Origin: Ottowia thiooxydans DSM 14619
Lineage (GTDB): Bacteria > Pseudomonadota > Gammaproteobacteria > Burkholderiales > Burkholderiaceae_C
Length of the DNA: 64,000 nucleotides
Direction: 5' to 3'
Assembly: GCF_000422885.1 (NCBI RefSeq)
Contig: NZ_AUGX01000010.1
Coordinates: 1 to 64,000 of the forward strand
Shown here: positions 43,550-62,100 of the stretch, piece after piece
Layout: every line of letters begins with the position of its first letter
How positions within the stretch are numbered: the first letter of the stretch is position 1
Program-made: the position numbers and the translations under genes
Notes under the pieces: generated by a model
The model's database searches: none
What the model saw: only the letters and a program-made list of their open reading frames with translations
Told to the model about the DNA's origin: nothing

Positions 43550-43651
43550 GCTTTACCTCTTTCAAGTGTTCCTATGGATGGCTCTCAAGAGGTAGGCCAC
43601 TTGAAACTGAAAAAGGTATAGCGAGATGAAGAAAAATAGAAACCAGTTGCC

Positions 43652-44644: not shown

Positions 44645-45144
44645 ACCGTCAGCGAAAAATAGCACTGCTGCGTCGCCCGCCGCATGTACTGCTTCACCAT
44701 GCTCACTGAGACGCCAATCTGCTCAGCGATTTCGACATAGGTGAGCCCTTCCAGTTGCGAGAGCAGGAATGCCCGCCTTGCCTTCGGCGGCAAGCCATCC
44801 AGCATGCGATCAATTTCCAAAAGAGTTTCCATCACGATGGCGCGATGCTCTGGAGAAGGGACTTGGGGTTCCGGCAAACACGAGATGGCATCCAGATAGG
44901 CCTGCTCAATCGCCCGCCTCCGGTAGTGGTTGGCTACCAGACCACCCGCGACCGTGGCCAGAAATGTGCGCGGCTCGCGAATACTCGTCACATCCCGTGA
45001 AGTCAGGATTCGAAGGAATGTGTCGTGGCTCAGGTCCGCCGCCTGGTGGGTATCGCCCAATTTACGACGCAACCACCCCTGCAGCCACCCGTGGTGGTCG
45101 CTATACAGGGACTCGACAGTGTGTATGGACACATGGTCTGGCAC
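44641..45144 (-). CDS. FecI-like ECF sigma factor (second system)
   Basis: The 167-residue sigma factor has region 2 at about residues 10-75 (YSDHHGWLQGWLRRKLGDTHQAADLSHDTFLRIL, REPRTFLATVAGGLVANHYRR) and region 4 at about 110-160 (LPPKARRAFLLSQLEGLTYVEIAEQIGVSVSMVKQYM). The start is a GTG at 45144 with AGGA upstream. It is the first gene of a four-gene iron-uptake operon and has a weak Fur-like site about 40 bp upstream. Confidence 0.9.
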   Translation of the reverse strand: MPDHVSIHTVESLYSDHHGWLQGWLRRKLGDTHQAADLSHDTFLRILTSRDVTSIREPRTFLATVAGGLVANHYRRRAIEQAYLDAISCLPEPQVPSPEHRAIVMETLLEIDRMLDGLPPKARRAFLLSQLEGLTYVEIAEQIGVSVSMVKQYMRRATQQCYFSLTV

Positions 45145-45948: not shown

Positions 45949-48900
45949 TTAAGCAGCTTTTTTCAAGGGAATCACCCTGCGCTGCAGGGCAGCTAGCAGG
46001 TCAGCCTCTCGCTTTCTGGCGGCATCAATGCCCTTCTCGCGCACGTGCCCGTAGCCCCGGATCTGCTCCGGTAGACTGGCCAGTTCAATGGCCACCTGAT
46101 GGTGCCCACTGTCGCGCGTGATCTGCAGGGTATCAATGGCCTTTTCAATATTTGCCTCGTATTCACCAATGAGGGCGCGCTCGGTGCGCCGTTCCTGGGT
46201 GTAGCCGAAGACGTCGAATGCGGTGCCACGCAAGCCGCGCATGCGGGCCAGGACTTTGAACACCGGAACGATCCAGGCGCCGAACTCCATCTTCTTTGGC
46301 TCACCCGTAGTCGGGTTACGGCGCGCAAGCAACGGCGGAGCCAGATTGAAAACCAGCTTGTAGTCGCCCTCAAACTGGCGATCGATGTTCTGCAAGAAGC
46401 CACTTTGCACATGCAGGCGGGCCACCTCGTACTCGTCTTTCATCGCCATGAGCTTGAATTGGTAGGTCGCCACGGCGCGCGTCAGTTCTGTTCGGCCCGG
46501 GAAAGCAGCCCTTTCCGCTGATCGAACCTTGTCGACCACCGCCATGTAGCGCTGCGCGTACGCTTCGTTCTGGTAGTCAACAAGGTACTTGCGCCGAAAC
46601 GCAATGGCTTGCTCCAGGTCTTGCACAGGCGCGGGTGAAATCCCGGCGTTGCCTACGGCCTGGCGCGAGGCGATCAGGTTCTCTACCGCTCTGGCGTCTA
46701 CCGCGGTGCGGCGTCCCCACATGAACGCGTCGCGGTTCATCTGTTGTGCGGTGCCATTGAGTTCAATGGCTTTGTCGATGGCTTCGGCCGTCAAGGGAAT
46801 GAGCCCGTGCTGGAAGGCGAAGCCCATCATGAACATGTTGGCCGAGATGCTGTCGCCCATCAGGGCCACGGCGATACGGCTTGCCGCTACGAAGACTGCG
46901 CCATCGGCGCCCACGGCATCGGTGATGTTCTTGCGCAGACCGCTGCTGGGGAACTGCATGTCAGCATCGCGCGCAAAATGGCCTGGCATGGTCTCTTCAG
47001 TGTTCACTACCATCCGGGTGTGGCCCTTGCGCGTGAGGGCAAGCGTCTTGGAGTTGCCAGCTACGATCACGTCGCAGCCGAGCACCAGATCGGCACCGCC
47101 GGCTGCAATTCGAATGGTCTTGATGGCTTCGGGCGAGCGGCCAAAGCGCAGGTGGCTCCAGACTGACCCACCCTTTTGCGCCAAGCCCGCCATATCCAGA
47201 ATGCCGCAGCCCACACCCTGCAGGTGTGCCGCCATGCCAAGGATGGCACCGATGGTCACCACGCCGGTGCCGCCCATGCCAGTCACCACAATGCTGTAAA
47301 CGCCCTTTTCCAGCGATGGCAGCACAGGCTCGGGCAGCGGCGGGAACACTGCGTTGTTGTTTACACGCTCGGGCTTGCGAAGCTTGCCACCCAACACCGT
47401 CACGAAGCTGGGGCAAAAACCCTTGGCGCAGGAGTAGTCCTTATTACAAGAGGACTGATCAATCCGGCGCTTGCGGCCTAGCTCGGTTTCCAGCGGCTGG
47501 ACCGACACACAGTTCGACTTCACACCGCAGTCGCCGCAGCCCTCGCAGACCAAATCGTTGATGACCAGGCGTTTGGCCGGATCGGGAAATTCTCCGCGCT
47601 TGCGCCGGCGCCGCTTTTCCGCTGCACAGGTCTGGTCGTAGATGAAGACGGTGGTGCCTTCGATCTCGCGCAGTTGCTTCTGCACTTCGTTGATGTCGTC
47701 GCGGTGGTGCACGGTCAGGCCGACGGGCCACTGAATGCCTGCCGGGTACTTGCCGGGCTCATCTGTCACCACAACGATGCGTTTCACGCCTTCGGCGTGT
47801 ACCTGGTGGGCAATGGTCGGTACATCGAGTGGCCCATCGTGCTTTTGCCCGCCCGTCATGGCCACCGCGTCGTTGAAGAGGATCTTGAACGTGATGTTGG
47901 TTTTGGCCGCAACGGCGGCGCGAACAGCCAGCAACCCGGAGTGAAAGTACGTGCCATCGCCCATGTTCTGGAACATGTGATCGCGTTTGGAAAACGGCGC
48001 CTCACCTACCCAAGACATGCCCTCCGCACCCATCTGGGTATAACCCTGGGTGGAGCGATCCATGGACTGAGCCATCCAGCTGCAGCCAATGCCTGCGTAG
48101 CCCTTGCTCCCTTCCGGAAGCACGGTGGACGAACTGTGCGGGCAGCCACTGCAGAAGTAAAAACTGCGCGAGAGAATGTCGATCACGCCCTTGGGCGCCC
48201 GGTATCCGCGAAGCTCGTCCACGCGTTGGCGCAACACCTCCAGGTTGCCTTCATTGAGCTCCAACAGACGCTCGCCGATGGCAATGGCGATCTGGTTGGA
48301 ATCCAGCGCCATCTCGGATTGCAACAGCGTCAGGCCGGTCTCGTCCTTCTTACCGACGATGGTAGGTGCGTTGGCCATGCCGTACAGCTGCTCCTTGAGC
48401 TGAAACTCCAGCAGGCTTCGTTTTTCTTCTACTACCAGGATCTTCTTCAAGCCGACCGCGAACTCTTTGGCACCTTCCGGTTCCAGCGGCCAAGTCATGC
48501 CGATCTTGTAGATGCGCAATCCGAGCTCGGCTGCTGCTTCCTCCGAGAGATTGAGCTCGTCCAGCGCTTGCAGCACATCCAGGTAGCTCTTGCCGTGGCT
48601 AGCGATGCCCAGCTTGGGCGTGGTTGAATCCAGCACCACCCGGTCGATTGCATTGGCGCGGGCGAATGCGGACACCGCCACCAGCTTATGGCGATGCAGA
48701 CGAGCCTCCTGAGCGTGCGGAGTGTCTGGCTGGCGCAGGTTCAGGCCATCGGCGGGCATTTCCACCCCTTCGGGCAAGCGTATCTGCACGCGGTTGAGGT
48801 CGACATCGATGGATGCTGTGGCCTCCACAGTGTCCTTCACGCACTTCATGCCAACCCAGCAGCCGCTGTAGCGTGAGAGCGCCCAGCCAATCACGCCGTA

Positions 48901-49443
48901 GTCCAGTACTTCCTGCACACCCGAGGGGCTGAGCACCGGAATCATGGCGTCGACCATGGCGAACTCGCTCTGGTGGCAGGTGGTGGACGACTCACAAGTG
49001 TGGTCGTCGCCCATGAGCACCAGCACGCCGCCATTCTTTGACGAGCCTGCCAGGTTGCCGTGGCGAAACGCATCACCCGTGCGGTCCACGCCAGGGCCTT
49101 TGCCGTACCACATGGCAAAGACACCGTCGTACTTGCCCTCCCCCGTGGCTTCCGCCTGCTGTGTGCCCCATACCGCGGTGGCGGCCAGGTCTTCGTTGAC
49201 GCCGGGCACAAAGAGCACGTTGTGTGCGGATAGGTGCTTTTTCGCCTTGCCGAGTTGGTCGTCAAAAGTACCTAGCGGAGATCCACGGTAGCCGGAGATG
49301 TATCCAGCAGTGGTCTTGCCGTCCTGCCGGTCGCGAAGGTGCTGGGTCATGGGCAGGCGCACCAGCGCCTGCGTGCCGGTGATGAAGATCCGGCCTTTTT
49401 CCAAGGTGTATTTGTCGTCCAGGCTGACGGTTTTGAGACTCAT
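45949..49443 (-). CDS. Indolepyruvate ferredoxin oxidoreductase family protein (fused subunits)
   Basis: Enzymes of this family oxidatively decarboxylate aryl- or branched 2-oxo acids to acyl-CoA with thiamine diphosphate. The 1,164-residue chain fuses an IorA-like part (GYISGYRGSPLGTFDDQLGKA, TPP motif GDGTYFHSGLLAVRAA with NDAVAMTGGQ), a ferredoxin-type Cys cluster (CEGCGDCGVKSNC, CNKDYSCAKGFCP) and an IorB-like part (VTGMGGTGVVTIGAILGMAAHLQG). Start MSLKTVSLDDKY has AAGGAAAT upstream. It is divergent from the RidA-DadA-Liv operon and shares TGTCGACA sites with it, suggesting it consumes the 2-oxo acid made by DadA. Confidence 0.92.
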   Translation of the reverse strand: MSLKTVSLDDKYTLEKGRIFITGTQALVRLPMTQHLRDRQDGKTTAGYISGYRGSPLGTFDDQLGKAKKHLSAHNVLFVPGVNEDLAATAVWGTQQAEATGEGKYDGVFAMWYGKGPGVDRTGDAFRHGNLAGSSKNGGVLVLMGDDHTCESSTTCHQSEFAMVDAMIPVLSPSGVQEVLDYGVIGWALSRYSGCWVGMKCVKDTVEATASIDVDLNRVQIRLPEGVEMPADGLNLRQPDTPHAQEARLHRHKLVAVSAFARANAIDRVVLDSTTPKLGIASHGKSYLDVLQALDELNLSEEAAAELGLRIYKIGMTWPLEPEGAKEFAVGLKKILVVEEKRSLLEFQLKEQLYGMANAPTIVGKKDETGLTLLQSEMALDSNQIAIAIGERLLELNEGNLEVLRQRVDELRGYRAPKGVIDILSRSFYFCSGCPHSSSTVLPEGSKGYAGIGCSWMAQSMDRSTQGYTQMGAEGMSWVGEAPFSKRDHMFQNMGDGTYFHSGLLAVRAAVAAKTNITFKILFNDAVAMTGGQKHDGPLDVPTIAHQVHAEGVKRIVVVTDEPGKYPAGIQWPVGLTVHHRDDINEVQKQLREIEGTTVFIYDQTCAAEKRRRRKRGEFPDPAKRLVINDLVCEGCGDCGVKSNCVSVQPLETELGRKRRIDQSSCNKDYSCAKGFCPSFVTVLGGKLRKPERVNNNAVFPPLPEPVLPSLEKGVYSIVVTGMGGTGVVTIGAILGMAAHLQGVGCGILDMAGLAQKGGSVWSHLRFGRSPEAIKTIRIAAGGADLVLGCDVIVAGNSKTLALTRKGHTRMVVNTEETMPGHFARDADMQFPSSGLRKNITDAVGADGAVFVAASRIAVALMGDSISANMFMMGFAFQHGLIPLTAEAIDKAIELNGTAQQMNRDAFMWGRRTAVDARAVENLIASRQAVGNAGISPAPVQDLEQAIAFRRKYLVDYQNEAYAQRYMAVVDKVRSAERAAFPGRTELTRAVATYQFKLMAMKDEYEVARLHVQSGFLQNIDRQFEGDYKLVFNLAPPLLARRNPTTGEPKKMEFGAWIVPVFKVLARMRGLRGTAFDVFGYTQERRTERALIGEYEANIEKAIDTLQITRDSGHHQVAIELASLPEQIRGYGHVREKGIDAARKREADLLAALQRRVIPLKKAA

Positions 49444-49497
49444 GGATTTCCTTCTTGACTGAACCAAGGCAACGTAATTTTTGATGTCGCCGCAAAG

Positions 49498-49505
49498 TGT
49501 CGACA
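49498..49505. promoter_or_regulatory. TGTCGACA operator site 1
   Basis: GTGTCGACAG lies 55 bp upstream of the IOR start, in a position to block its promoter. TTGTCGACAA-like palindromes are typical of GntR/FCD regulators, and a GntR/FCD gene ends the divergent operon. Confidence 0.55.
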
Positions 49506-49688
49506 GGTGTTTAATCACAAGTAAATCATGCCCGGAATACGCTTGTCAACTGTTTAGGGAAAGTCCGGATGAGAGTGCATCAGGAACGTCTTGTTTTTCG
49601 CCAGACATCCCCGCACAAGTCCAGTGCACCATGCACCGCAATGATCGTTCTACGCCCCGGGAATGCGCTGAATCGGTGCGAAAAGTCA

Positions 49689-49702
49689 ATGTGTCGACAC
49701 AT
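49689..49702. promoter_or_regulatory. TGTCGACA operator site 2 (perfect 14-bp palindrome)
   Basis: ATGTGTCGACACAT is a perfect palindrome centrally placed in the divergent region. Confidence 0.6.
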
Positions 49703-49794
49703 CTGTAGTCACATATCGCTAATGGCATAGATATTGCAGTTGATCGACTAGGGAAAACACTATCTCACATATCGCCGATTGACCTCTATAAACA

Positions 49795-49816
49795 CTGTCT
49801 CGACAAGTGTCGACAC
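49795..49816. promoter_or_regulatory. TGTCGACA operator site 3 (double)
   Basis: A variant CTGTCTCGACAAG is followed at once by GTGTCGACAC (49807-49816), about 52 bp before the ridA start. The tandem arrangement suggests cooperative binding. Confidence 0.6.
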
Positions 49817-49867
49817 ACCGAATGGCATTTTCATTCAAGCTTTTTCAACACCCCAAGGAGTAATCAC

Positions 49868-50215
49868 ATGAACATCCAACGCATCCAACCCAATGCCCGC
49901 ATGAGCGCCGCCGTCGTCTGCAATGGCTTCGTCTTCCTCTCTGGCCAGGTGGCTGACGACACCACAGCCGATGTCGCAGGTCAGACGCGCCAGATCCTCG
50001 ACAAGATCGACCGCATCCTGGCTGAGGCTGGCAGCAGCAAGGAGCGCGTGCTCAGCGCCAACATCTGGATTGCAGAGGCTTCAACTTTCAACGAGATGAA
50101 CAGCGTATGGGACGCCTGGGTGCCAGCCGGCAACACCCCTGCACGTGCATGCGTGGAGTCCAAGCTCGCGTTCCCGCAGTACACGGTCGAAATCGGTGTG
50201 ATCGCCGCCGTCTGA
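49868..50215 (+). CDS. RidA-family 2-iminoacid deaminase
   Basis: RidA proteins hydrolyse reactive 2-imino acids to 2-oxo acids and ammonia. The 115-residue protein shows RMSAAVVCNGFVFLSGQVADD, DILAEAGSSKERVLSANIWIA-type mid section, and TPARACVESKLAFPQYTVEIGVIAAV with the conserved Arg and Glu of active members. AAGGAG lies 9 nt upstream. It is 11 bp before dadA, so it probably clears the imine formed by that enzyme. Confidence 0.92.
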   Translation: MNIQRIQPNARMSAAVVCNGFVFLSGQVADDTTADVAGQTRQILDKIDRILAEAGSSKERVLSANIWIAEASTFNEMNSVWDAWVPAGNTPARACVESKLAFPQYTVEIGVIAAV

Positions 50216-50226
50216 GCGCCCACGCG

Positions 50227-51468
50227 ATGAAAACGGTCATTCTCGGAGGGGGCATCGTCGGAGTGACGACCGCCTACTACCTGGCCCGCGAGGGACATGA
50301 GGTGGTGGTCGTAGACCGGCAGCCCGAAGTCGCCAGAGAAACCAGTTTCGCCAACGCGGGCCTGGTGGCGCCCGGCCACGCCTACACCTGGGCGTCGCCC
50401 CGGGCGCCCAAGATTCTGCTCAAGTCTCTTTTCCTCAAAGGTCAGGCGTTGCGACTCAAGCTGCGTTTTGACCCGCGCATGTGGGCCTGGGGGCTGCAGT
50501 TCCTGGCCCAGTGCACAGCGGAGCGTTCGCGTGAGAACACCGCGCGCAAGTTGCGGCTATGCCTGTATTCGCAAGACCTCTTGCAGGAACTCACAGACCA
50601 GGAGCAGCTGCAATACGACCTCATCTCCGGAGGATGCCTTTACGTCTACCGCGATCCCGTCGCCTTCGAGCGTGGCGTGGCCGCCACCAGCGTACTCTCC
50701 GATGGCGGACTGACGCTGCAGAGGCTCACGCCGGATGAAGTAGTGCAACGAGAGCCGTCCCTGGCTGCTGCACGCTCGCAACTGGCTGGGGCGATCTTCT
50801 GTCCGTCCGACGCGAGCGGCGACGCTCATCTGTTTGCCCGGCAGCTGGCCGAACGCTGCAAGCAACTGGGCGTTCAGTTCCTGATGGACCGCCAGATCAC
50901 CGGCTGGGACAACAGCGCTGACCGCATCAACGCCGTACGCACAGACAAAGGCCCCATCACGGGGGACCGGTTTGTGCTGGCGCTGGGCAGCTATTCGCCA
51001 TTGCTGGCCTCCAAGGTGGGATACAGCCTGCCGGTGTATCCCGTCAAGGGCTATTCGATGACGCTGCCCATCCGCCCAGGAGATGAGGCACCCACGCTCG
51101 GGGGTGTCGATGAACACAACCTGGTGGCCTGGGCGCGCTTTGGCAACCGCCTGCGTTTTACGGCCACCGCCGAGTTCGCAGGCTATGACACCGCACACAC
51201 ACCGCGTGATTTCGAGGACATGCTGGGCGTGGCACGCCAGCTGTTTCCGCGTGGAGCTGACTACGACTCACCGTCGTATTGGTCGTGCCTGCGTCCCATG
51301 ACGCCTGCGGGCGCTCCCATCCTTGGCGCCACGCGCCACCGCAACCTATTCCTCAACACGGGCCATGGACACATGGGCTGGACGATGGCCTGCGGCACTG
51401 GCCGCATCGTTGCCGACCTGCTTTGCGACCGCAAACCACACCACAGCCTGGAAGGCCTGACCCTATGA
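50227..51468 (+). CDS. D-amino acid dehydrogenase (DadA-like)
   Basis: This FAD enzyme oxidises D-amino acids to imino acids. The 413-residue protein starts at MKTVILGGGIVGVTTAYYLAREGHEVVVVDRQPEVARETSFANAG, the full DadA-type FAD fold and motif. It ends in GHGHMGWTMACGTGRIVADLL, the DadA C-terminal FAD loop. It lies between ridA and the racemase-family gene, overlapping the latter by ATGA. The side-chain preference is not readable from sequence; divergence from the IOR gene hints at aromatic or branched D-amino acids. Confidence 0.92.
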   Translation: MKTVILGGGIVGVTTAYYLAREGHEVVVVDRQPEVARETSFANAGLVAPGHAYTWASPRAPKILLKSLFLKGQALRLKLRFDPRMWAWGLQFLAQCTAERSRENTARKLRLCLYSQDLLQELTDQEQLQYDLISGGCLYVYRDPVAFERGVAATSVLSDGGLTLQRLTPDEVVQREPSLAAARSQLAGAIFCPSDASGDAHLFARQLAERCKQLGVQFLMDRQITGWDNSADRINAVRTDKGPITGDRFVLALGSYSPLLASKVGYSLPVYPVKGYSMTLPIRPGDEAPTLGGVDEHNLVAWARFGNRLRFTATAEFAGYDTAHTPRDFEDMLGVARQLFPRGADYDSPSYWSCLRPMTPAGAPILGATRHRNLFLNTGHGHMGWTMACGTGRIVADLLCDRKPHHSLEGLTL

Positions 51469-52241
51469 ACACCCTGACCGCGCCCACCCGCACTTATCAG
51501 AAGCACCCGTTCAAACTCGGCACCGGCCCGGCGTCTCGTGCCGCCATAGGCTTGATCGTGCTGGCTACAGACCACACCATAGAGCACGAATGGCACCGCA
51601 TCATGCAGCTAGATGGTGTGGCGCTCTATCAGTCCCGCCTCTACAACTCTGCGGACATCAATCCCCAGACTCTGGCGGCCATGGAGAAAGATATCGCTCC
51701 TGCGGTGTCCCTGATCCTGCCGGGCCAGCGCATGGATGTGGTGGCGTTCGGTTGCACTTCAGGTGCGATGGTCATCGGCGAAGAGGCTGTATTCGAACGT
51801 ATTCGTGAGGTGCGACCCGGTGTAGCCTGTACGAGCCCCATCACCGCCGCACAGGTCGCGCTCAAGACGCTAGGTGCGCGCCGGGTGGGTCTGCTGACGC
51901 CGTACGTGAAATCAGTCAGCGACTGGATGGCCGACTACATCGCAGACCGTGGCTTTGATGTCACGGCGAGCGTCTCCTACGAGCATGCTGACGATAACGA
52001 GGTTGCCCGTATCGACGAGGCATCTATCCGCGCCTCAGTGCTGGAATTGGGCAAGTCCCCAGATGTCGACGCTGTATTCGTCTCGTGCACCAGCATGCGG
52101 CTGGCCAGCCAGGTGACCGCGCTTGAACAGGCCATAGGTAAGCCCGTGATTTCCAGCAACCACGCCATGGCATGGCACGCCCTGCGTCTTGCAGGCATCC
52201 ACGACGCCTTGCCTCAGTGGGGCCGGCTTTACAGCCTCTAA
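51465..52241 (+). CDS. Asp/Glu racemase-family protein (EutA/maleate isomerase-like)
   Basis: The 258-residue protein has the two Cys-centred loops of cofactor-independent racemases and isomerases: VAFGCTSGAMVIG (Cys97) and VFVSCTSMRL (Cys208). Its start, GTGPASRAAIGLIVLATDHTIEHE, is close in pattern to ectoine-utilisation EutA and maleate isomerases. It overlaps dadA by ATGA. In this operon it could interconvert L- and D-forms so that DadA can act, or isomerise a dicarboxylate intermediate; the sequence does not decide. Confidence 0.82.
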   Translation: MNTLTAPTRTYQKHPFKLGTGPASRAAIGLIVLATDHTIEHEWHRIMQLDGVALYQSRLYNSADINPQTLAAMEKDIAPAVSLILPGQRMDVVAFGCTSGAMVIGEEAVFERIREVRPGVACTSPITAAQVALKTLGARRVGLLTPYVKSVSDWMADYIADRGFDVTASVSYEHADDNEVARIDEASIRASVLELGKSPDVDAVFVSCTSMRLASQVTALEQAIGKPVISSNHAMAWHALRLAGIHDALPQWGRLYSL

Positions 52242-52273
52242 CCCGTTTCGCAGCTCAGCTGCATTTCCGCGCC

Positions 52274-52295
52274 GCCGGCACTGCCGGCTTGTTTT
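52274..52295 (+). terminator. Terminator-like hairpin between racemase and livK-type genes
   Basis: GCCGGC-ACT-GCCGGC forms a 6-bp stem followed by TTGTTTT. It may terminate part of the transcripts inside the operon or separate enzyme from transporter expression. Confidence 0.45.
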
Positions 52296-52320
52296 CCACC
52301 GATCCCCATAGGAGTGAAGC

Positions 52321-53415
52321 ATGAAGTTGATTGCAACGAAATTCTTGGCAGCGGGCTTGCTCGCCGCCTCCGCAGCCGCACAGGCACAAGACGTCACGAT
52401 TGGTGTCGTTCTGCCACTGACCGGCGCCAGCGCCAGCATCGGCGAAGACCAACGCAGAGGCGTCGAGCTTGCCACCGAGCGCGTCAACGCCGCTGGCGGG
52501 GTACTGGGCCGCAAGCTGCGCGTGATCATTGAAGATTCTGGCGGCCGTGCGCCCACGGCGCTTGATGGCGCCAAGAAACTGGTAACGGTGGACAAGGTGC
52601 CGGTAGTGCTGGGTGAATACTCCTCTGGCATCACGATTCCAACGGCCCAGTACGTCATCAAGGAAGGCGCCTCACACCTGAATATTGGCAGCTCCAGCCC
52701 GCGCGTGCGCGAAATCGGCGTTGGCTCTTTCAGCGTGATCGGCCTGGACAACGTTTCCGCCAAGTTCGGCGCCACCGACGTGTTCGAGCAGAAGTTCCGC
52801 AAGGCCGCCTTCATCGCGCCCAACAACGCTTACGGCCAGGGCGTAGCGGAGGAATTCAAGAAGAACTTTGAGGCCCTGGGTGGCAAAGTGGTGACATCCA
52901 TCCTCTACACCGCCGGCCAGTCTACCTACCGCCGCGAGCTGCAGCAGATCGAACGCTCAGCGCCTGATGTATACGTTTACAGCGCGTACGGCCAGGAAGC
53001 GGCCATCATCAACCGCGAAGCCTTCGACCTTGGCCTCAACAAGACCCAGTGGTACGCCATCTACCAAACGATGTGCACTACGGACACGCCAGCCCAGATC
53101 GCCAATGGCCAGATTGGCATGGAAGTGAGCTCGATCGGCCCCAATGGCCGTTCTTATGAAGAGGCTTACACCAAGAAGTACAACGAGAAGCTGAAGTCGG
53201 CCTACGGCAGCTACGCCTATGACGGCGTCATGCTCGCTGCAGCCGCCATCAAGCAGGCTGGTTCCACCGACAACGCCAAAGTCCGCGTGGCCCTGGCCGA
53301 AGTGGGCCGTAAGTTCGAAGGCGTGACGGGCGAAATCTCCTTTGACCAGGATCGCCAGCGTGCAGTGCAGCCATACCTGCGCACGCGTTATCAGAACGGC
53401 GTGCAGCCACGTTGA
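52321..53415 (+). CDS. Branched-chain-type amino acid ABC transporter binding protein
   Basis: The 364-residue periplasmic protein of the LivK/Peripla_BP_6 family has a signal peptide ending at AAQAQD and AGGAG upstream. It contains VTIGVVLPLTGASASIGEDQRRGVELATERVNAAGGVLGRKLRVIIEDSGG and EFKKNFEALGGKVV, the usual two-domain pattern. It supplies the Liv permease encoded downstream. Members of this family bind amino acids, amides or aromatic compounds. A strong hairpin after it may keep its mRNA more abundant than that of the permease. Confidence 0.9.
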   Translation: MKLIATKFLAAGLLAASAAAQAQDVTIGVVLPLTGASASIGEDQRRGVELATERVNAAGGVLGRKLRVIIEDSGGRAPTALDGAKKLVTVDKVPVVLGEYSSGITIPTAQYVIKEGASHLNIGSSSPRVREIGVGSFSVIGLDNVSAKFGATDVFEQKFRKAAFIAPNNAYGQGVAEEFKKNFEALGGKVVTSILYTAGQSTYRRELQQIERSAPDVYVYSAYGQEAAIINREAFDLGLNKTQWYAIYQTMCTTDTPAQIANGQIGMEVSSIGPNGRSYEEAYTKKYNEKLKSAYGSYAYDGVMLAAAAIKQAGSTDNAKVRVALAEVGRKFEGVTGEISFDQDRQRAVQPYLRTRYQNGVQPR

Positions 53416-53425
53416 TGCCTCTGGT

Positions 53426-53457
53426 GCGGGTTGGGGCGTCAACACGCCCTGACCCGC
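53426..53457 (+). other. mRNA-stabilising hairpin between binding protein and permease genes
   Basis: A 14-bp stem (GCGGGT-tg-GGGCGT and ACGCCC-tg-ACCCGC, with two G-U wobbles) closes on a CAAC loop. No T-tract follows. Such hairpins often protect the upstream binding-protein mRNA in ABC operons. Confidence 0.6.
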
Positions 53458-53496
53458 CCGACCGCGCCCTCCTCTCTTCCTTCATGAGACCCGCCC

Positions 53497-54390
53497 ATGC
53501 TTCAGTTCTTCCTGGATGTGCTCATACGCACGGCTGACCTCGCCCTGGTCGCCGTAGGTCTGAGTGCCGTTTACGCCCTGGTCAAGTTTCCCAACGTGGC
53601 CCACGTCCAATACGCCGTCGTGGGCGCATTCCTGACACTAAGCGGCCAGCGCATGGGTTTGCCATTTCCCGTGGCTATGGTTGTCTCATGTTTGTTGACT
53701 GGCGTGTTGGCCGTGCTGCTCAACACGTTGGTGTTTCGCCGGTTGCTGCGATCCGGGCCAGCCATCGCCATGATCGGTTCTCTGGCGGTGTCTATGGTGA
53801 TCGTGGCACTCATCCTGGGTATTGCCGGTTCGCGCCCACAGCGCTTCCAATTTGACATCGTTGCGCCGCTGGTGATCGCGGGCGCCCGGGTTTCCCATGC
53901 GCAGGTGTATTCGATCGTGGTGGCCATCGCGGTGTTGTCTGTCTTTACCTTCGTCCTCTATCGAACATCCGTCGGCCGCTCGATGCGCGCGCTGGCCTCC
54001 AACCGTTCGCTGGCCGAGGCCACCGGCATCAACGCAGCAGCCATTACCAACCAGATCAGTTTCGTCAGCGGCGCGCTGGCCGCGGTGGGTGGAACCATGC
54101 TCGCCATGACGGGCGACGTCCACATGAATCTGGGCACCGACCTATTACTGCCGGTGTTTGCCGCCGCCATTCTTGGGGGGCTAGGCAGTCCGCTGGGCGC
54201 AGTCGCTGGGGCCTTGCTCATCGCTATCGCCGAGACACTGGTGACCAATCTGAACCTCGGCTGGCTGGTTGGGCAACCGCTCGCCTTCTTGCCCGTGACC
54301 TACATCGGTGCAGCGTCATTCATCTTTCTGCTGGTGGCGCTGCTGTTCAAACCCTATGGCCTGTTCGACCGGGAGGTGCGCCGTGTTTGA
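53497..54390 (+). CDS. Branched-chain amino acid ABC transporter permease, LivH-type
   Basis: This is a 297-residue inner-membrane permease with about eight helices, beginning FLDVLIRTADLALVAVGLSAVYALVKFPNVAHVQYAVVGAFLTL. The LivH EAA-like region is visible around RSMRALASNRSLAEATGINAAAITNQISFVSGALAAVGGTML. It overlaps the livM-type gene by 8 bases. It carries the substrate across the membrane with LivM. Confidence 0.92.
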   Translation: MLQFFLDVLIRTADLALVAVGLSAVYALVKFPNVAHVQYAVVGAFLTLSGQRMGLPFPVAMVVSCLLTGVLAVLLNTLVFRRLLRSGPAIAMIGSLAVSMVIVALILGIAGSRPQRFQFDIVAPLVIAGARVSHAQVYSIVVAIAVLSVFTFVLYRTSVGRSMRALASNRSLAEATGINAAAITNQISFVSGALAAVGGTMLAMTGDVHMNLGTDLLLPVFAAAILGGLGSPLGAVAGALLIAIAETLVTNLNLGWLVGQPLAFLPVTYIGAASFIFLLVALLFKPYGLFDREVRRV

Positions 54391-55267
54391 TTTTCTGCTT
54401 CACGCCGTCACGGTGACGGCCATCTACGCCCTCATCTCCGTCTCCCTGAACATCCAGGCAGGTTATGCGGGCCTGCTCAACCTCGGCCACATCGCCTTTG
54501 TGGGCGTGGGCGCTTACGCAGTGGGCATCGCCCATCAAATGCATTGGAACCCCGCCATCGGGTGGATGCTGGGGTTGGCGGTGGCTGCCATTCTGGGTTT
54601 CTTCGTCTCCCGACTCGGCCGCAACCTTGGCGCTGACTACTGGGGTATTGCCACCCTGGCGGTGGCGGAGATCGTACGTACGATTGCGCTGAACGAAGAC
54701 TGGCTGACCGGCGGCGCCCAAGGCATCAGCGGAATCACGCCGATGTGGAGTTCGCTGAGCTCTTCCGGCTCTCGCTGGGCATTTCTCGCGACGGTTCTGG
54801 TCACCTTGTTCGCTGCTGCAGCCCTGACGAGTCGACTAGGCGCGGGACGCTTTGGCAGATCCCTTCGGCTCATGCGCGAGGAGCCTTCACTGGCGACCAG
54901 CATGGGCTACGACTTGGTGGGCCTGAAATCGCGTGCCACAGTGGCCTCGGCCATGATGGCCGCAGTGGCAGGGGCGTTTCTCGGCCATTACGTGAGCTAC
55001 GTGGGTCCTGACTTCATGCTCGCCTCCGAGACCTTCATGATCTGGACGATGGTCATGATCGGCGGCCTGGGCAACGTAGCCGGTGTCGTGCTCGGCGCTC
55101 TGCTGGTGCAGAGCATCTACATCTCGGTCCCCTTTGCCCGCGATTTTCTGGGCATAGGCTCCGATGTAGCGGGTGCCGTCAGGCTGGGCCTGATCGGATG
55201 TCTGTTGCTGGCCTGCCTGCTGTGGCGCAAGGACGGCCTTCTGCCTGAAACCCTGAGGAAGCTGTGA
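54383..55267 (+). CDS. Branched-chain amino acid ABC transporter permease, LivM-type
   Basis: This is a 294-residue permease starting at GTG 54383 (VFDFLLHAVTVTAIYALISVSLNIQAGYAGLLNLGHIAFVGVGAY), with GGGAGG 6 nt upstream. It has the FGRSLRLMREEPSLATSMGYDLVGLKSRATVASAMMAAVAGAF EAA-type region. It overlaps both neighbours, so the permease and ATPase genes are translationally coupled. Confidence 0.92.
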   Translation: MFDFLLHAVTVTAIYALISVSLNIQAGYAGLLNLGHIAFVGVGAYAVGIAHQMHWNPAIGWMLGLAVAAILGFFVSRLGRNLGADYWGIATLAVAEIVRTIALNEDWLTGGAQGISGITPMWSSLSSSGSRWAFLATVLVTLFAAAALTSRLGAGRFGRSLRLMREEPSLATSMGYDLVGLKSRATVASAMMAAVAGAFLGHYVSYVGPDFMLASETFMIWTMVMIGGLGNVAGVVLGALLVQSIYISVPFARDFLGIGSDVAGAVRLGLIGCLLLACLLWRKDGLLPETLRKL

Positions 55268-56052
55268 TGCCCGCGCTGCTCGATATCCAAAACATCCACA
55301 AGGCCTTTGGTGGCAATGTGGTCCTTCAAGGTGCGTCGCTGAATGTGATGCCAGGCGAGATCGTTGGCCTGCTGGGCCCGAACGGATCCGGCAAGAGCAC
55401 ATTGCTTAACGTGGCCTCCGGCTTTGCCAGGGCAGACTCGGGCGAGGTGCTGTTCGAAGGCCAGGACATTTCCCGACTTCCAGCCCACCGCATCGTTCAC
55501 CACGGCATGGCCAGAACGTTTCAACTGCCCTCCATGCCGAGCCGCATGAGTGTGCTGGAAGTTACTTTGGCTGCCGACACGCGTCTGCACGGCGTGTGGT
55601 CTACCCTGCTCAAACCCCGCGCCGTGCGCGAAGCTGAAGCCGAGGCGCTGCAACAAGCCAACCAGCTGCTGGACTCTCTGTTGCTGACTCCGGTGAAACA
55701 ACTGGCAGCATCAGCGATTTCAGGCGGACAAAAGAAGCTCCTGAGCATTGCATGCGCCTTGATGGCACGACCCAAACTGCTGATGCTCGACGAGCCCACC
55801 GCGGGCGTACACCCCAATCTGCGTCGCGACATTGTGCAGACGCTGCAGAGTCTGCGTGCCCAGGGGATCTCGCAGCTCATTGTGGAGCACGACATGCACT
55901 TCGTACGCGAGGTGTGCACGCGTTGCATCGTCCTGGACAGGGGCCAGATCGTGGCTGATTGCAAACCGGAAGAACTTTCTTCTCACCCCCAGGTCATTGA
56001 GGCCTACCTCGGGCGCGCGGCTGCGGAAGCCGCGCAGATGAAAGCCGCATGA
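55267..56052 (+). CDS. Branched-chain amino acid ABC transporter ATPase, LivG-type
   Basis: The 261-residue ATPase has Walker A GPNGSGKSTLLNVASGF, a Q-loop region, signature SGGQKKLLSIACALMARPKLLMLDEPTAGVHPN (signature plus Walker B) and the H-loop VEHDMHFVREVC. The LivG-type insertion follows the Q-loop. ATG 55267 shares one base with the livM stop. Confidence 0.93.
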   Translation: MPALLDIQNIHKAFGGNVVLQGASLNVMPGEIVGLLGPNGSGKSTLLNVASGFARADSGEVLFEGQDISRLPAHRIVHHGMARTFQLPSMPSRMSVLEVTLAADTRLHGVWSTLLKPRAVREAEAEALQQANQLLDSLLLTPVKQLAASAISGGQKKLLSIACALMARPKLLMLDEPTAGVHPNLRRDIVQTLQSLRAQGISQLIVEHDMHFVREVCTRCIVLDRGQIVADCKPEELSSHPQVIEAYLGRAAAEAAQMKAA

Positions 56053-56858
56053 TGACGCCCCAACAAGACGCATCCCACCTCACCGATCGCCAACCACGCA
56101 GCGCAAGGTTACTCAACATGAACATAAAAGCCGAGAAGGAAGTCGATGTTCGCGATGTGGTCGCTGGTTACAGCGCCGAAGTAGATATCTTGCGTGGCAT
56201 TTCGCTCAACGTCACGTCCCGCGAGATCGTTTGCATTCTTGGCCCCAACGGTTGCGGAAAGTCCACGCTGCTCAAGACCGTGGCCGGGTTCCTGCGGCCT
56301 CGAAGCGGCAGCATTCACATACGCGATGAAGATGTCAGCCAGATCCCGGTGCACCGTAAGGTACGAAGCGGCACCATCGGATTCGTGCCCCAGACCGACA
56401 ATGTCTTTGGCTCATTAACCACCTGGGAGAACCTGGCCCTGGGCGGCCAGTTCATGCCGAAGACCGAATGCGCGCAACGCATTGAGGAACTGTGCACTAC
56501 CTATCCCGTGCTGGCGCGCAAGCTGAGCTCGTCCGCAGCGTCGCTATCCGGGGGAGAACGCCAGGTCCTTTCGCTGGCCCGGGCGCTGATGCCACGCCCG
56601 CGCGTGCTGCTGCTCGATGAACCTTCCGCCGGCTTATCGCCCAAAACTCTGGCGGAAGTCTTCGAAGCAATCTCCGCCACTCGGGACAAGGAAGGCATTT
56701 CCGTGTTGATGGTTGAGCAAAACGCCATGGAAGCCTTGCGCATCTCAGACCGAGCCTACGTGCTTTCTGTAGGCACCGTCGCCCTCGAAAACAAGGCCAG
56801 TGTGCTCATGAACAGCCCTGAAATGCGCGAGCTGTACCTGGGTGGCCGCCCTCATTGA
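56049..56858 (+). CDS. Branched-chain amino acid ABC transporter ATPase, LivF-type
   Basis: This ATPase has up to 269 residues, with Walker A GPNGCGKSTLLKTVAGFLRPRSG, signature LSGGERQVLSLARALMPRPRVLLLDEPSAGLSPK and H-loop VEQNAMEAL. ATG 56049 overlaps the LivG stop as ATGA but adds 23 residues before MNIKAEKEVDV (56118), which gives the usual LivF length; either start is possible. It completes the importer that serves the RidA/DadA/DapA pathway. Confidence 0.93.
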   Translation: MMTPQQDASHLTDRQPRSARLLNMNIKAEKEVDVRDVVAGYSAEVDILRGISLNVTSREIVCILGPNGCGKSTLLKTVAGFLRPRSGSIHIRDEDVSQIPVHRKVRSGTIGFVPQTDNVFGSLTTWENLALGGQFMPKTECAQRIEELCTTYPVLARKLSSSAASLSGGERQVLSLARALMPRPRVLLLDEPSAGLSPKTLAEVFEAISATRDKEGISVLMVEQNAMEALRISDRAYVLSVGTVALENKASVLMNSPEMRELYLGGRPH

Positions 56859-56869
56859 TATCACCATTC

Positions 56870-57817
56870 ATGCCCACAACTTCCATTCAAACGCTGCCCT
56901 ACGGCAGCTTGGTCGCCATCATCACTCCGTTTGACGCCACTGGCGCCATAGACTGGCACGCGCTCGAAAACCTCATCGACTGGCATGTGCGAAGCGGCAC
57001 ACGCGGTCTTGTGGTGGCCGGCACCACTGGAGAATCTTCCACCCTCAGCATGGACGAGCACGCCGAACTGCTGACCCGTTCAGTGGCCCACGCCAGAGGG
57101 CGTATTCACGTAATGGCCGGCGTAGGAGCCAACTCAACAGCCGAAGCGGTTCACCTCGCGCGCATGGCGCACAAGGCGGGTGCGCACTCACTGCTCAGCG
57201 TGGTGCCGTACTACAACAAGCCCGTCCAAGAAGGCCTCTATCGCCACTTTGTGGAACAGGCCGACGCCACACCGCTGCCTCTGGTGGTCTACAGCGTCGC
57301 CGGCCGCACCGTAGTTGATTTCTCCATACCCACCCTGCAGCGTTTGGCGCAACACCCGAACATCAAGGGCATTAAAGATGCGTCGGGCGATCTGGTGCGC
57401 GCCCAGCAGCTGGCCGCCGCCTTGCCCGATGATTTCATGCGTTACAGCGGCGACGACCTGACCGCCGCCGCCGCGCTCGCCCTGGGGGCACACGGCATCA
57501 TCTCCGTCACCGGCAACGTAGTCCCGGCGGCGGTCCAGGCGCAATGCATGGCCATTACGGAGGGAAAGCTCGCGCAATCGCTAACACTGGTCGCCGACCT
57601 CTTCGAGCTGTCCCAAGCGCTGTTTACCGAGAGCAACCCCATTCCGGTGAAGTACCTGGCCAGTCTCATGGGCCTTTGCCAGAACATCTTGCGCGAACCG
57701 CTGGTCCCCGCCAGTTCCGCGTGCTCCAAAGACTTGGACAGGCTCCATGTGCAGTCGCCACTCATTGTCGATGCGGCTCAGGCCTTCGCCGATGATCGGG
57801 CCTTGTCTGTGGCGTGA
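56870..57817 (+). CDS. DapA-family Schiff-base lyase (4-hydroxy-tetrahydrodipicolinate synthase-like)
   Basis: This is a 315-residue TIM-barrel class I lyase. Motifs are GSLVAIITPFDATGAIDW, VVAGTTGESSTLS (Thr-Thr substrate site), PYYNKPVQEGLYRHF, the Tyr loop VYSVAGRTVVDF (true DapA has YNVPGRT) and the Schiff-base lysine in IKGIKDASGD. The C-terminal FTESNPIPVKYL is typical of DapA. In a catabolic operon it may act as a DapA relative such as a pyrroline-hydroxycarboxylate deaminase or a 2-oxo-acid aldolase rather than in lysine synthesis. The start is ATG 56870. Confidence 0.87.
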   Translation: MPTTSIQTLPYGSLVAIITPFDATGAIDWHALENLIDWHVRSGTRGLVVAGTTGESSTLSMDEHAELLTRSVAHARGRIHVMAGVGANSTAEAVHLARMAHKAGAHSLLSVVPYYNKPVQEGLYRHFVEQADATPLPLVVYSVAGRTVVDFSIPTLQRLAQHPNIKGIKDASGDLVRAQQLAAALPDDFMRYSGDDLTAAAALALGAHGIISVTGNVVPAAVQAQCMAITEGKLAQSLTLVADLFELSQALFTESNPIPVKYLASLMGLCQNILREPLVPASSACSKDLDRLHVQSPLIVDAAQAFADDRALSVA

Positions 57818-57893
57818 ACTAGAGGGCCCCCGAGCACGGTTAGGCTGGGGCAATGAGCGGTAGTACAAGGTGTAAAATCACGGCAAACGAAAC

Positions 57894-57914
57894 TGTCTAC
57901 ACTTGTTGCAACAA
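57894..57914. promoter_or_regulatory. Operator-like sites before the GntR gene
   Basis: TGTCTACA (57894-57901) resembles the TGTCGACA sites of the divergent promoter, and TTGTTGCAACAA (57903-57914) is a perfect 12-bp palindrome. Both lie 64-84 bp upstream of the GntR start and suggest autoregulation. Confidence 0.45.
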
Positions 57915-57977
57915 AGTCGGTGGGATCACGAAAACCTGTCACGGCCTCCTTGAAGCCAGCCTCCCTCTCCCTTAAAT

Positions 57978-58739
57978 ATGGCCACCACCCCTGCTCGCCG
58001 ACGCGCTGTCCCCCGACACATACCTCAACCGCGGGACGAAAGCTCTGTGGAGCGCCTGTATCTCCACCTCCGGGACCGCGCGATGCGCTACGAATTCCGT
58101 CCGGGCACCCGTATCAACGAGCAAGCGTTAGGCCGTGAGTTCGGAGTGAGCCGCGCCCCTCTGCGAGAGGCCTTGAACCGGTTGGTGGCAGAAGGCCTGC
58201 TGGATTTCGTCATGAACAAGGGGTTCTTTCGCAAGAACATCAGCGTCGACGAGGTGTTCGACCTCTACCAGGTACGCATTGCTCTGGAACGCCGTGCAGT
58301 TTACCTGGCCCTGCAACGCGCCACCGACGCCGAAATCGAAGCGGTTCGGCAATACTGGAGCGAGGTGATGTCGCGCGCAGCTGAGATGACTTCTGACGAT
58401 TTCCTGCTGGCAGACGAAGAGTTCCACCGCCGCATGGTCGCGCTGGCCAGGAACAAAGAGCTGAACGCCTTCATGGAAGTGGTCACCCGGCGCATCCACA
58501 TTGCGCGCCACATCGACATCCAGCAATCGGCTTGGAACACCAAGGCTTTCGATGCCCACTTCGAGATCCTGCAACTGATGCAGGATCGCAAGAAGGAAGT
58601 TGCATTGGAGTGCATCACCGAGCACATCGACATGAGCATGAAGCGGGCGGTTGAGATCACCAAGGAGATGGTGGCCAAGTTCTTTTTGGTGAACTCATCG
58701 ATGCCCGAGACTTCGCCTACCCCAGCACAGGACCACTGA
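57978..58739 (+). CDS. GntR-family regulator with FCD domain
   Basis: The 253-residue regulator has an N-terminal GntR winged helix (about residues 22-85: SSVERLYLHLRDRAMRYEFRPGTRINEQALGREFGVSRAPLREALNRLVAEGLLDFVMNKGFF). The C-terminal FCD helical domain contains ADEEFHRRMVALARNKEL and ITEHIDMS, with Asp/His residues placed for metal and carboxylate binding. It closes the RidA-Liv-DapA operon and is the best candidate to bind the TGTCGACA palindromes. Confidence 0.92.
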   Translation: MATTPARRRAVPRHIPQPRDESSVERLYLHLRDRAMRYEFRPGTRINEQALGREFGVSRAPLREALNRLVAEGLLDFVMNKGFFRKNISVDEVFDLYQVRIALERRAVYLALQRATDAEIEAVRQYWSEVMSRAAEMTSDDFLLADEEFHRRMVALARNKELNAFMEVVTRRIHIARHIDIQQSAWNTKAFDAHFEILQLMQDRKKEVALECITEHIDMSMKRAVEITKEMVAKFFLVNSSMPETSPTPAQDH

Positions 58740-59151: not shown

Positions 59152-62100
59152 CTACCAGGCCGGCGCTGTCGGCACCGTGGTTCCAATGACTCGATAGATG
59201 CGGTCGTCAGCCCCCTGGAACGCCACCTCAAGCTCGCCGGCGGCGACCAAGCGTTCGAATTTCGCCAGCCCCGCAACTGGGTAGACGGTACGCTCAAGCC
59301 CACCCACAACGATGTAGCGAACGCCATAGCGGCGTAGCGTTTCAATTGTGGCGCCCTCTTCTACTCCGGCGTAAAGAGCGGCCACGTTGCGGCGCCGCAA
59401 TTCGATCGCTTCATGCAGGGCCGGCAGCGGACGTTGCTGGGCCTCATGGTAGCGATAGCCCAGCAGCGTAGGCAGGCCGGTGTGCACGGAAATGCGGCTA
59501 CCCCAACGGTGTTCTGGAAGCTGGGCTTCAAGGATGATCGAGTCCATGGCCGCATGCGCGCGCAGCCATTCGATGAGGCGTTTATCGTCCGTTAGCGGAA
59601 GTTTATGGCCTTCGTAATCGTAGACGGCGTGCGTGAGGAAGGCTTCCCCATCCAGTGTTGGGGCAGCGCCGGGGTCGAAACGGGTCATTGCCCGCCCTAC
59701 CGTGCCCGCAGGCAGGTAGAGCAGCCCTATGAGCGTAGCTAAGGTGAAAACACAGGCCCATGTCCCAAGCAGTCCGCGCTGCAATCCTCCAGCGCGAGCA
59801 CGCCATCGGGGGCGAAACACGATGGAAAGCCGCGCCAATGCGATGCCAGAGGCGATCGAGAGCAGCACCCAGGCTTGCATGTGCAGCTTGAAGTAGGTGT
59901 TCATGCGTCCCATGTCTCGGCCGATGACGAAAAACTCAACGAACAGGGTCAATGCGAGACCGGCGAGCGTCAGTACCAGCGCGGCGCGTGTGGCATTGTC
60001 GGTACGTGTGCGTAGCAGCGTCTCGCCCGCCCAGGCTAGCAGCGCAAACTGAAGACCTAGCGCTGGCACGCTAGGGGTCGCACCGACAAGATACGCTCCG
60101 GCAGCGATCAACGTAAACAACACGCCGAGCTTGCGCAGGCGTTGCAGCGCCGTCGCGGCAAAACTAACCGTCGTTGCCGCCCATGGTGGAGCCGGTGGAG
60201 CAAGAGGCGTGGTCGGTCTGATCAGCCATAACCAGCCAGCGATGACTACGATAAACCATCCTTGTATGGTGACCCAGTCGACAAGCGACGTGAAACGACC
60301 GGTATATAGGTGCAGCGACACCGCTCCGGTCGCAAAGCTTGCGAACGGCCAGCGCAACACGTGCTCAAGGAACACGAACAGCAGGAGCCCCAACCCGGCC
60401 TGGGTTACGCGCACACGTAAATCACCTGTTTTTTCATGACCCAGTGGCCATGGCCAGGCAAATAGCACCGTGGCCATGCAGGCGAACACCATATAGAAAG
60501 GCCAGTCCCACGCGTTGGTGGCGCGTAGCAGCGCCACGGGAACAGCGAGAAAAGCAACGGTTGTATAGACCCGCCAGAGCTCAATCCCGCGTTGCGCACC
60601 TCCTGCGGATGGCTGTCGGGAAAGCCTGCTGATGGCCATGGCGGAAATGGCGAACAGTGCCATCAGCTGCAGAGGAAGCGCCAGCAAATGCGGGTGCAGA
60701 TCCCCAAGCAGGAAAGAGAACGCTGGGAACTCATTCACCTCGAAACTGGCGCCGGGCTGCCGCCCTATCGTGCGCGAAGGCGCCCAGAACCAATCTACGG
60801 GGCGCAACTCCGCCATTGCCCCGGTCAGTCCGCTTACTGTTGCAAATAAGCCCGGCCCGGCGATACGCGCAAGATCCATGTTACCGAGCAATGCCGCCGA
60901 GACCAACGCAAACCCACCAGCTATCCAAGCGACGTACCGCCGCCTCTGTTGAAGTCCAAGAGCCGCCCACAAATTGCATGCGATGCCTCCTACACCGATG
61001 CCGAGCATGGCGTACCAGGTCGCGAGCGCAAAATTGAACGCCATGGCCGAAGGCGTTTGGGTCAGCTTGGCCAGCACGCCAACCAGTACATAGCCAAAGT
61101 AATAATAATTAAGACGCCCTCCCGCAAACCAGGGGTCATCCGGTGGGAAGCTGCTCGAATCCAGTACCCGGTTGAAGATGGCGAACTCCATCGGTTTCTC
61201 GCCTCCGAGGCCTGGCGACCACAGATCAGGATGGAGCAACCGCAGGAGCAAACCCAATGCGAAAAGAGCCGCGAATACAGCTTCAATGATCAGAGCACGC
61301 CGTAACACCGGCGCAGGAAGGATGGATTGCAAGCCACCGAAGCTTTTCGAAGCGATGAGGGTCAGCACCGTCATGCCGCCAGAGATCGCAAGCAAACCAC
61401 CGAGCGACCACGCCGGGATATTCAGGCCTGCCAGCCACCACGCCGGTAGCGCACACGCGACCAGCCCGGTGATGCGCGCAACCGCATAGCCGCGATCCGG
61501 CACTTGGGGCCACAGCCGTGCAAGCCAAACCCAGGCCACCAGCCCTAGCCAAACAGTAGCCCCATACCAGAGCAGAACAAACCAAAGCTGCAGGTGCCAT
61601 GGCACGGGATACGCCGGGTGCCGCTCACTGGCGTCCCGCACCGCGATGGTGCTTCCCTTGCCGTTAAGTGGGATGGCCAGCATGCCGTCTGGTGCCTGAT
61701 CGGCTTCGCGTGTAGACCAGGTCAACCTGCCGGCAACACGTGGAACTGAGCTCTCCTTCGCCTCCTCCAACGTGGTCAGGTTGATGTCTGACAACAGCGC
61801 CCGGACGCGGCCACCGGCTTCACCATCTGCCTTGCGAAAAATCATCACCGCAGGGTGGTCGTAAACGCTGAATGCTTCCTCCGCTGCCAGTGCCTCAGGA
61901 ACCTCAATGGAGCACTGAGGATCTTTAACAGGGACTTTATGGTCGCAAATCGAAAGCGGTCCAAGCCGTGGCCATGAGGTGGAGGTCAACGCAAGCTCGT
62001 ACCCAAGCGTGCCGTCAAAAAGCCCTTGGTAGAACGCTACGGTCATCGGGAAGCGCAAAGGGTTGCGCCTCATCGGCGTATAGAGACGCTCGTTAGGCAC

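Follow-up and report, generated by a model that had tools for sequence, protein, structure and literature searches.

Closest described systems

In the dguRABC D-glutamate locus of Pseudomonas aeruginosa a D-amino acid dehydrogenase is accompanied by PA5083, an imine hydrolase of the Rid2 type, and by a binding protein, and the same combination is found in a gene cluster of Ottowia thiooxydans DSM 14619, which lies in a stretch of 64,000 nucleotides (positions 1 to 64,000 of contig NZ_AUGX01000010.1, called the window here). In this cluster a gene for a fused indolepyruvate (2-oxo acid):ferredoxin oxidoreductase (IOR) is divergent from ridA, dadA, a racemase-family gene (rac), livKHMGF, a dapA-family gene and gntR. 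To our knowledge, dguRABC has no IOR, no racemase and no Liv system, and its regulator is of another type. The Ottowia cluster is probably a local regulon for an uncommon amino acid, with uptake by the Liv system, racemisation, oxidation by DadA, imine hydrolysis by a Rid2 protein and conversion to acyl-CoA by IOR, all under one GntR repressor. The literature consulted, represented in part by titles and the first lines of abstracts, yielded no account of such a cluster of IOR, DadA and GntR, nor of the palindrome TGTCGACA together with a GntR protein.

Single parts of the cluster have better known counterparts. Atu1419 of Agrobacterium fabrum is a GntR protein of the VanR/FCD type; the report on its solved complex describes binding to ATGTATACAT via Arg45 and gives Glu34, Arg45 and Arg49 as the residues that contact DNA (PMC7797058). 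AlkR, also of the VanR type, acts as a repressor until acyl-CoA releases it (PMC12042122). Rid2 proteins, the subfamily to which PSPTO_0102 and PA5083 belong, show broad imine hydrolysis that extends to the imines of Leu, Gln, Phe, Met, His and Arg and to the product of D-arginine dehydrogenase (PMC5619798). For the levulinate genes lvaABCDE of Pseudomonas, it is proposed that LvaA/LvaB and LvaC convert 4-hydroxyvaleryl-CoA to 3-hydroxyvaleryl-CoA, moving the hydroxyl from C4 to C3 (PMC6692424).

Operator-like sites in the window

The initial annotation had placed copies of TGTCGACA and a variant in the divergent promoter and a related motif before gntR, and a count of the sequence bears this out. 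TGTCGACA occurs three times in the whole window, at 49498, 49692 and 49808, each time between the start codons of IOR and ridA in a gap of 424 bp (49444–49867), which also holds the variant TGTCTCGACA; the motif before gntR is TGTCTACA (57894–57901). In dinucleotide shuffles of the whole window the mean number of TGTCGACA was 0.94, and 5 of 100 shuffles had at least three copies anywhere in the 64 kb. At the shuffle rate 0.006 copies are expected in the gap and the Poisson chance of three is about 4e-8, a figure that can serve as a guide only, the motif having been picked after looking. A sigma-70 scan of 49380–49900 gave one promoter-like match, equal to the number in shuffles. Between two of the operators there is an exact direct repeat of 11 nucleotides, TCACATATCGC, at 49709–49719 and 49765–49775 (56 bp apart), which could belong to a second regulator.

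Distribution of the gene set and of the sites

Relatives were collected by way of the racemase-family protein, a search with which gave 609 plasmid records at E 1e-5 (8 neighbourhoods opened, two of them reopened wider), and by an alignment search that gave 501 confirmed stretches in genome contigs, the best 80 of which were kept. Mapping of the window proteins onto 84 loci (L021, L024, L026, L027 and L030–L109, with L022, L023, L025 (same as L055), L028 and L029 left out) separates four classes. Thirteen loci are IOR-bearing; 16 have ridA and gntR and no such IOR in the stretch, L036 and L042 being assigned to this IOR-less class though they are cut by contig ends and both have accessory genes of IOR-bearing clusters; 41 have the dadA–racemase pair beside an unrelated Liv system, without gntR; and 14 have little besides the racemase and usually dadA. 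A gntR gene is in the stretch in 13/13 IOR-bearing loci and in 16/16 of the IOR-less class, which is partly defined by it, and in none of the 55 others. The IOR-bearing class is found in Caballeronia, Burkholderia, Paraburkholderia, Cupriavidus and the alphaproteobacterium Azospirillum, whose minimal version has only liv, gntR, IOR, ridA, dadA and the racemase gene, and the set without IOR is found in the alphaproteobacterium Shinella and, among other relatives, in Pseudomonas (L049, L085). Across Burkholderiaceae and alphaproteobacteria the set recurs in shuffled orders, and because gene order differs so widely we infer that selection or joint transfer keeps it together. Around the window organism itself the gene set appears to be rare, with no racemase match at E 1e-40 among 398 other genomes of the order and with distant matches only (≤33% identity) in 7 of 59 relatives. 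In the tree the window DadA groups with the DadA of gntR-only and gntR-less classes, apart from its counterparts in the IOR-bearing loci of Burkholderiaceae (support 91/98, not starred), and the window cluster may therefore be a mosaic; the dadA and racemase trees sample the commonest gntR-less class at every fourth locus, and the gntR and ridA trees are confined to the gntR-bearing classes.

The palindrome follows the same division. Within 350 bp of ridA or dadA, TGTCGACA is present in 12 of 13 IOR-bearing loci (shuffle expectation 0.15) and in 5 of 16 IOR-less ones (0.06), and in the two gntR-less classes it is present in 1 of 40 (0.16) and 0 of 11 (0.04) testable loci. This class split has a Fisher p of 7.5e-9, uncorrected for kinship, over 80 testable loci, 1 of the 41 and 3 of the 14 gntR-less loci having been dropped. 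The exception among the IOR-bearing loci is Azospirillum, with TGTATACA twice instead. In 12 of these 13 loci TGTCGACA (in Azospirillum TGTATACA) lies 64–79 bp upstream of the ridA match. The IOR-less class rises to 11 of 16 once six further palindrome centres, chosen after the sites had been seen, are allowed, and in three of the remaining five, L027, L031 and L033, it is instead dadA or livK that has the site at its operon head. The initial annotation had named relatives lacking both the pairing and the motif as a refutation, and the comparison came out in favour of the shared operator that it proposed: most gntR-bearing loci keep the motif at an operon head despite rearrangement or absence of IOR, and dadA–racemase loci without gntR almost all lack TGTCGACA.

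Sites are also located upstream of livK (L029, L033, L140, L142–L145), dapA (L029, L036) and IOR (L046, L048) in relatives, which argues that the tie between the arms is not an accident of one genome. In L140 and L144 the open reading frames upstream of livK that are preceded by the site matched neither Pfam (at 1e-10) nor the Cupriavidus porin, and are probably spurious. A third half-site, TGT, stands four bases beyond the palindrome on either side in 41 of 54 cluster sites (48 different, from 29 gntR loci), against 1 of 30 for TGTCGACA elsewhere in the 84 loci. Judged by these counts the conserved site of the relatives is longer than 8 bp and reads TGTCGACA-N4-TGT. Across the whole of eight genomes that have IOR-type clusters (one cut by contig ends), 26 of 46 matches to TGTCGACANNNNTGT are at the cluster, and the backwards control gave 4 matches in the same eight. 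DNA looping by a fixed spacing is not favoured: two sites are 194 bp apart in the window and 191–205 bp apart upstream of ridA in 7 IOR-less loci, but the distance is 88–145 bp in IOR-bearing loci, so there is no constant spacing.

The regulator

The window GntR protein has a winged helix-turn-helix (PF00392) and an FCD domain (PF07729). E48, R59, R63, D146, H150, H194 and H216 are invariant among nine aligned regulators, and the last four of these we take to be the metal ligands of the FCD domain. By the offset of the 6z74 match, and if no gap precedes, E48, R59 and R63 would correspond to Glu34, Arg45 and Arg49 of Atu1419. The two systems share an FCD GntR protein and a TGTNNACA core of the operators, and the atu1418-1419 region holds two palindromes with a spacing of 190 bp, comparable with the 194 bp between two of the window sites (PMC7797058). 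However, the centre is CG here and AT there, the relatives of this cluster have the third half-site TGT four bases on, and the target genes are others. The VanR-type label of the window GntR rests on the similar operator and the solved relatives. The precedents of Atu1419 and AlkR and the position of sites 55, 60 and 84 bp before start codons suggest that the window GntR is a repressor.

Reciprocal searches, which covered the genomes of 7 of the 13 IOR-bearing loci, point to orthology of the cluster regulators of the window and its relatives. The window GntR found the cluster GntR as its best match in 7/7 genomes, with 154–160 bits and all others at 83 or less; in the opposite direction the GntR of L046 found the window GntR best at 155 bits, the next of 30 matches in the window genome having 84.

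The enzymes and the predicted route

The family calls of the initial annotation were confirmed by family models for IOR, RidA, DadA, the racemase family, the LivK type, the DHDPS family and GntR/FCD; LivH, LivM, LivG and LivF are identified only via the annotated genes of relatives that match them. The window IOR matches the fused IOR model NF009588 over its full length with 1651.6 bits (cut-off 952), in common with the fused IORs of PRK13029/13030, but it differs from other members in belonging to what the identities mark as a separate orthologous group within the family. Among 16 relatives' genomes searched (those of 7 of 13 IOR-bearing and 9 of 16 IOR-less loci), this orthologue is present at 63–65% identity, in one copy and inside the cluster, in 7/7 IOR-bearing genomes and in 0/9 IOR-less genomes, one of which has no IOR copy at all. 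The copies outside the cluster in the seven and the copies in the IOR-less genomes have 55% identity or less. The window genome has three more full-length fused IOR homologues (C9:136189-139716, C24:541-4047 and C7:42875-46339), which are 51, 47 and 44% identical.

DadA scores 447.3 bits with the subfamily model NF001933 (cut-off 383) and 256.9 bits with the equivalog NF009074, under its cut-off of 494. The best PDB matches of RidA are 9bk1 and 9bjv (PSPTO_0102/PA5083), and an arginine in its ARACVES stretch may, judged by eye, be equivalent to RidA Arg105. C97 and C208 of the racemase-family protein are invariant in seven aligned sequences, a two-cysteine criterion that does not separate racemase from maleate isomerase. 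Two other assignments of this protein were rejected. EutA (ectoine utilisation; TIGR02990) gave 233.6 bits, under the cut-off of 318, and arylmalonate decarboxylase, which has a single catalytic cysteine, gave 72 bits (NF052327, cut-off 225) for a protein with two. The DapA protein matches TIGR00674 (DHDPS) with 309.1 bits (cut-off 206), and a second DapA-family copy elsewhere in the genome is 47% identical to it; it is an optional member without a clear place in the route, and it may or may not serve lysine synthesis. Hydroxyproline catabolism likewise combines a dehydrogenase of the DAO family and an enzyme of the DapA family. It is not favoured here, as there is no proline-racemase-type epimerase among the window cluster proteins scanned and DapA scores as DHDPS.

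In the predicted route, an uncommon amino acid would be taken up by the Liv ABC transporter and brought to its D form by the two-cysteine racemase-family enzyme. DadA would oxidise the D form to a 2-imino acid, the Rid2 protein would hydrolyse the imine, and the cluster-specific fused IOR would decarboxylate the resulting 2-oxo acid to an acyl-CoA. A dimer of the VanR/FCD-type GntR may sit on the TGTCGACA palindromes near the points where the two divergent arms and gntR itself begin, repressing them, until it is released by a carboxylate ligand, possibly the amino acid or the oxo acid derived from it.

Alternative explanations

The accessory genes of some relatives raise the question of the substrate. 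The fullest cluster, that of Paraburkholderia unamae (L143), has a run of liv-dapA-APH-DUF6285-acyl-CoA dehydrogenase-IOR-SDR followed by gntR, and a pair of dadA and a pipecolate-oxidase-like gene divergent from ridA-racemase. Parts of this run from dapA to SDR are found in P. ribeironis and Trinickia, and also in Cupriavidus, which lacks the acyl-CoA dehydrogenase and adds a BktB thiolase, and the phosphotransferase, DUF6285 and acyl-CoA dehydrogenase genes occur together in L036, L142 and L143. As in lvaABCDE, a phosphotransferase, a small partner, an acyl-CoA dehydrogenase and an SDR form one run in the largest relatives, but here the trio follows amino acid oxidation and IOR instead of an acyl-CoA synthetase. 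DUF6285 is presumed to equal LvaB from size and gene order. The likeness would place a 4-hydroxyacyl-CoA after IOR and hence a 5-hydroxy-2-amino acid at the start, and for the fullest relatives it hints at a hydroxylated amino acid as the substrate, in place of the D-Phe, D-Trp or D-Leu of the initial annotation. That the cluster in general degrades such a compound, its IOR product being isomerised via a phosphate ester in the relatives as in levulinate degraders and the window being cut down, seems doubtful to us, although the C4 to C3 shift proposed for the Lva proteins would suit it (PMC6692424). No match to DUF6285 turned up in the window genome, where the only APH is distant (26%), so either the substrate there differs or the pathway is completed by other means, and the trio is not in the stretches of Caballeronia, Azospirillum, L140, L141, L144 and L145. 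We offer as a speculation that the full clusters encode an aerobic pathway not described so far, in which a 5-hydroxy-2-amino acid would be racemised, oxidised by DadA/Rid2 to a 5-hydroxy-2-oxo acid, decarboxylated by the ferredoxin-linked IOR to a 4-hydroxyacyl-CoA and, once its hydroxyl had been moved to C3 by way of phosphorylation, oxidised again and cleaved by thiolysis, with one GntR reading the three-half-site operator and the window as a trimmed form.

A second alternative, which we consider unlikely, accepts the regulon and takes its substrate to be acidic or cyclic, either resembling D-glutamate (compare dguRABC) or being an imino acid, with IOR serving a side substrate or merely sharing the operator. 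The closest solved structures of RidA are PSPTO_0102 and PA5083, the latter presumably within the D-glutamate locus of P. aeruginosa; the racemase family includes Asp/Glu racemases and maleate isomerases; an L-pipecolate-oxidase-like FAD protein is in the cluster of L035, L036, L037 and L045 (three were scored, at 273–275 bits, under the cut-off of 600); and IOR-less versions retain the operator and GntR. A dedicated IOR would, however, be needless for 2-oxoglutarate, yet the orthologous IOR is inside the cluster in the seven IOR-bearing genomes searched, and IOR has its own upstream TGTCGACA in L046, L048 and the window.

Several observations weigh against the reading of a local GntR regulon. 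The IOR arm is optional in relatives, as is dapA, and the IOR-bearing L034 has no ridA or liv in its stretch. The window GntR is 37–41% identical to the regulators of eight relatives and is on a very long branch in the tree, and the exact third half-site TGT is found in 1 of 4 window sites (49692). No such site lies upstream of ridA in the IOR-less gntR loci L049 and L085 of Pseudomonas. In the eight IOR-type genomes 20 of the 46 TGTCGACANNNNTGT matches are away from the cluster, and of the 19 matches to the extended pattern in seven IOR-less genomes only 5 are at it. The wider TGTNNACA pattern, chosen after the sites were seen, is found in 8 of 40 gntR-less loci, 7 of these matches being TGTATACA/TGTAGACA 24–25 bp upstream of dadA (TGTATACA in L079, L084, L086, L087, L089 and L099; TGTAGACA in L096), likely a separate site that belongs to another regulator. 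That the palindromes are read by another TGTNNACA-type regulator and gntR is a mere neighbour would agree with the reading of this frame by another FCD GntR (PMC7797058), with the 30 matches to the cluster GntR in the window genome (itself included) and with TGTATACA possibly upstream of dadA in gntR-less loci, but it is very improbable, as gntR and the motif divide the four classes alike.

Features and neighbouring genes

Table 1. Genes and operator-like sites of the cluster, with window coordinates
Feature	Position	Strand	Remarks
Fused IOR, 1164 amino acids	45949..49443	-	ATG at 49443; NF009588, NF009589, POR, DUF6537
Operator-like TGTCGACA	49498..49505		55 bp upstream of IOR start; third half-site TTT instead of TGT
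Operator-like TGTCGACA-N4-TGT	49692..49706	+	176 bp upstream of ridA; exact third half-site
Variant TGTCTCGACA	49796..49805		from the window sequence
Operator-like TGTCGACA	49808..49815		60 bp upstream of ridA
RidA	49868..50215	+	closest solved structures PSPTO_0102 and PA5083 (Rid2 subfamily)
FAD D-amino acid dehydrogenase DadA	50227..51468	+	NF001933; start most likely 50227
Asp/Glu-racemase/EutA/maleate-isomerase-family protein (rac)	51465..52241	+	C97 and C208; start most likely 51465
LivK-type substrate-binding protein	52321..53415	+	family match
LivH-type permease	53497..54390	+	matches annotated permeases of L021 and others
LivM-type permease	54383..55267	+	start uncertain; matches to annotated genes of relatives
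LivG-type ATPase	55264..56052	+	matches to annotated genes of relatives
LivF-type ATPase	56118..56858	+	start inferred, open reading frame from 56049; matches to annotated genes of relatives
DapA/DHDPS-family protein	56870..57817	+	TIGR00674
Operator-like TGTCTACA	57894..57901		84 bp upstream of gntR ATG
GntR/FCD regulator	57978..58739	+	PF00392 and PF07729

Beside the cluster, the minus strand at 41042–45144 encodes a FecI-type sigma factor, a FecR-type regulator and a TonB receptor. Adjoining gntR, 59152–63996 on the minus strand encodes a very large membrane protein of 1614 amino acids with DUF2298 and PMT_2 domains, for which glutamate dehydrogenase is a wrong assignment. Among relatives, a variant in Trinickia and Burkholderia IMCC1007 (L036 9231-10892; L141 11492-13111) has a different Liv system together with an FAD protein resembling ketosteroid dehydrogenases, and a class-III aminotransferase gene adjoins dadA in Burkholderia sp. 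Bp8963 (L045 6395-7777).

Significance

If the predicted regulon is true, a single controlled pathway would connect the oxidation of D-amino acids with the imine chemistry of Rid proteins and with a large 2-oxo acid oxidoreductase that depends on ferredoxin. It would give a clade of fused IOR enzymes a physiological setting and a group of GntR proteins a testable operator code. The extra half-site of the relatives would make the regulon easier to follow across whole genomes, and the trio of accessory genes that includes the kinase may provide a handle on the substrate.

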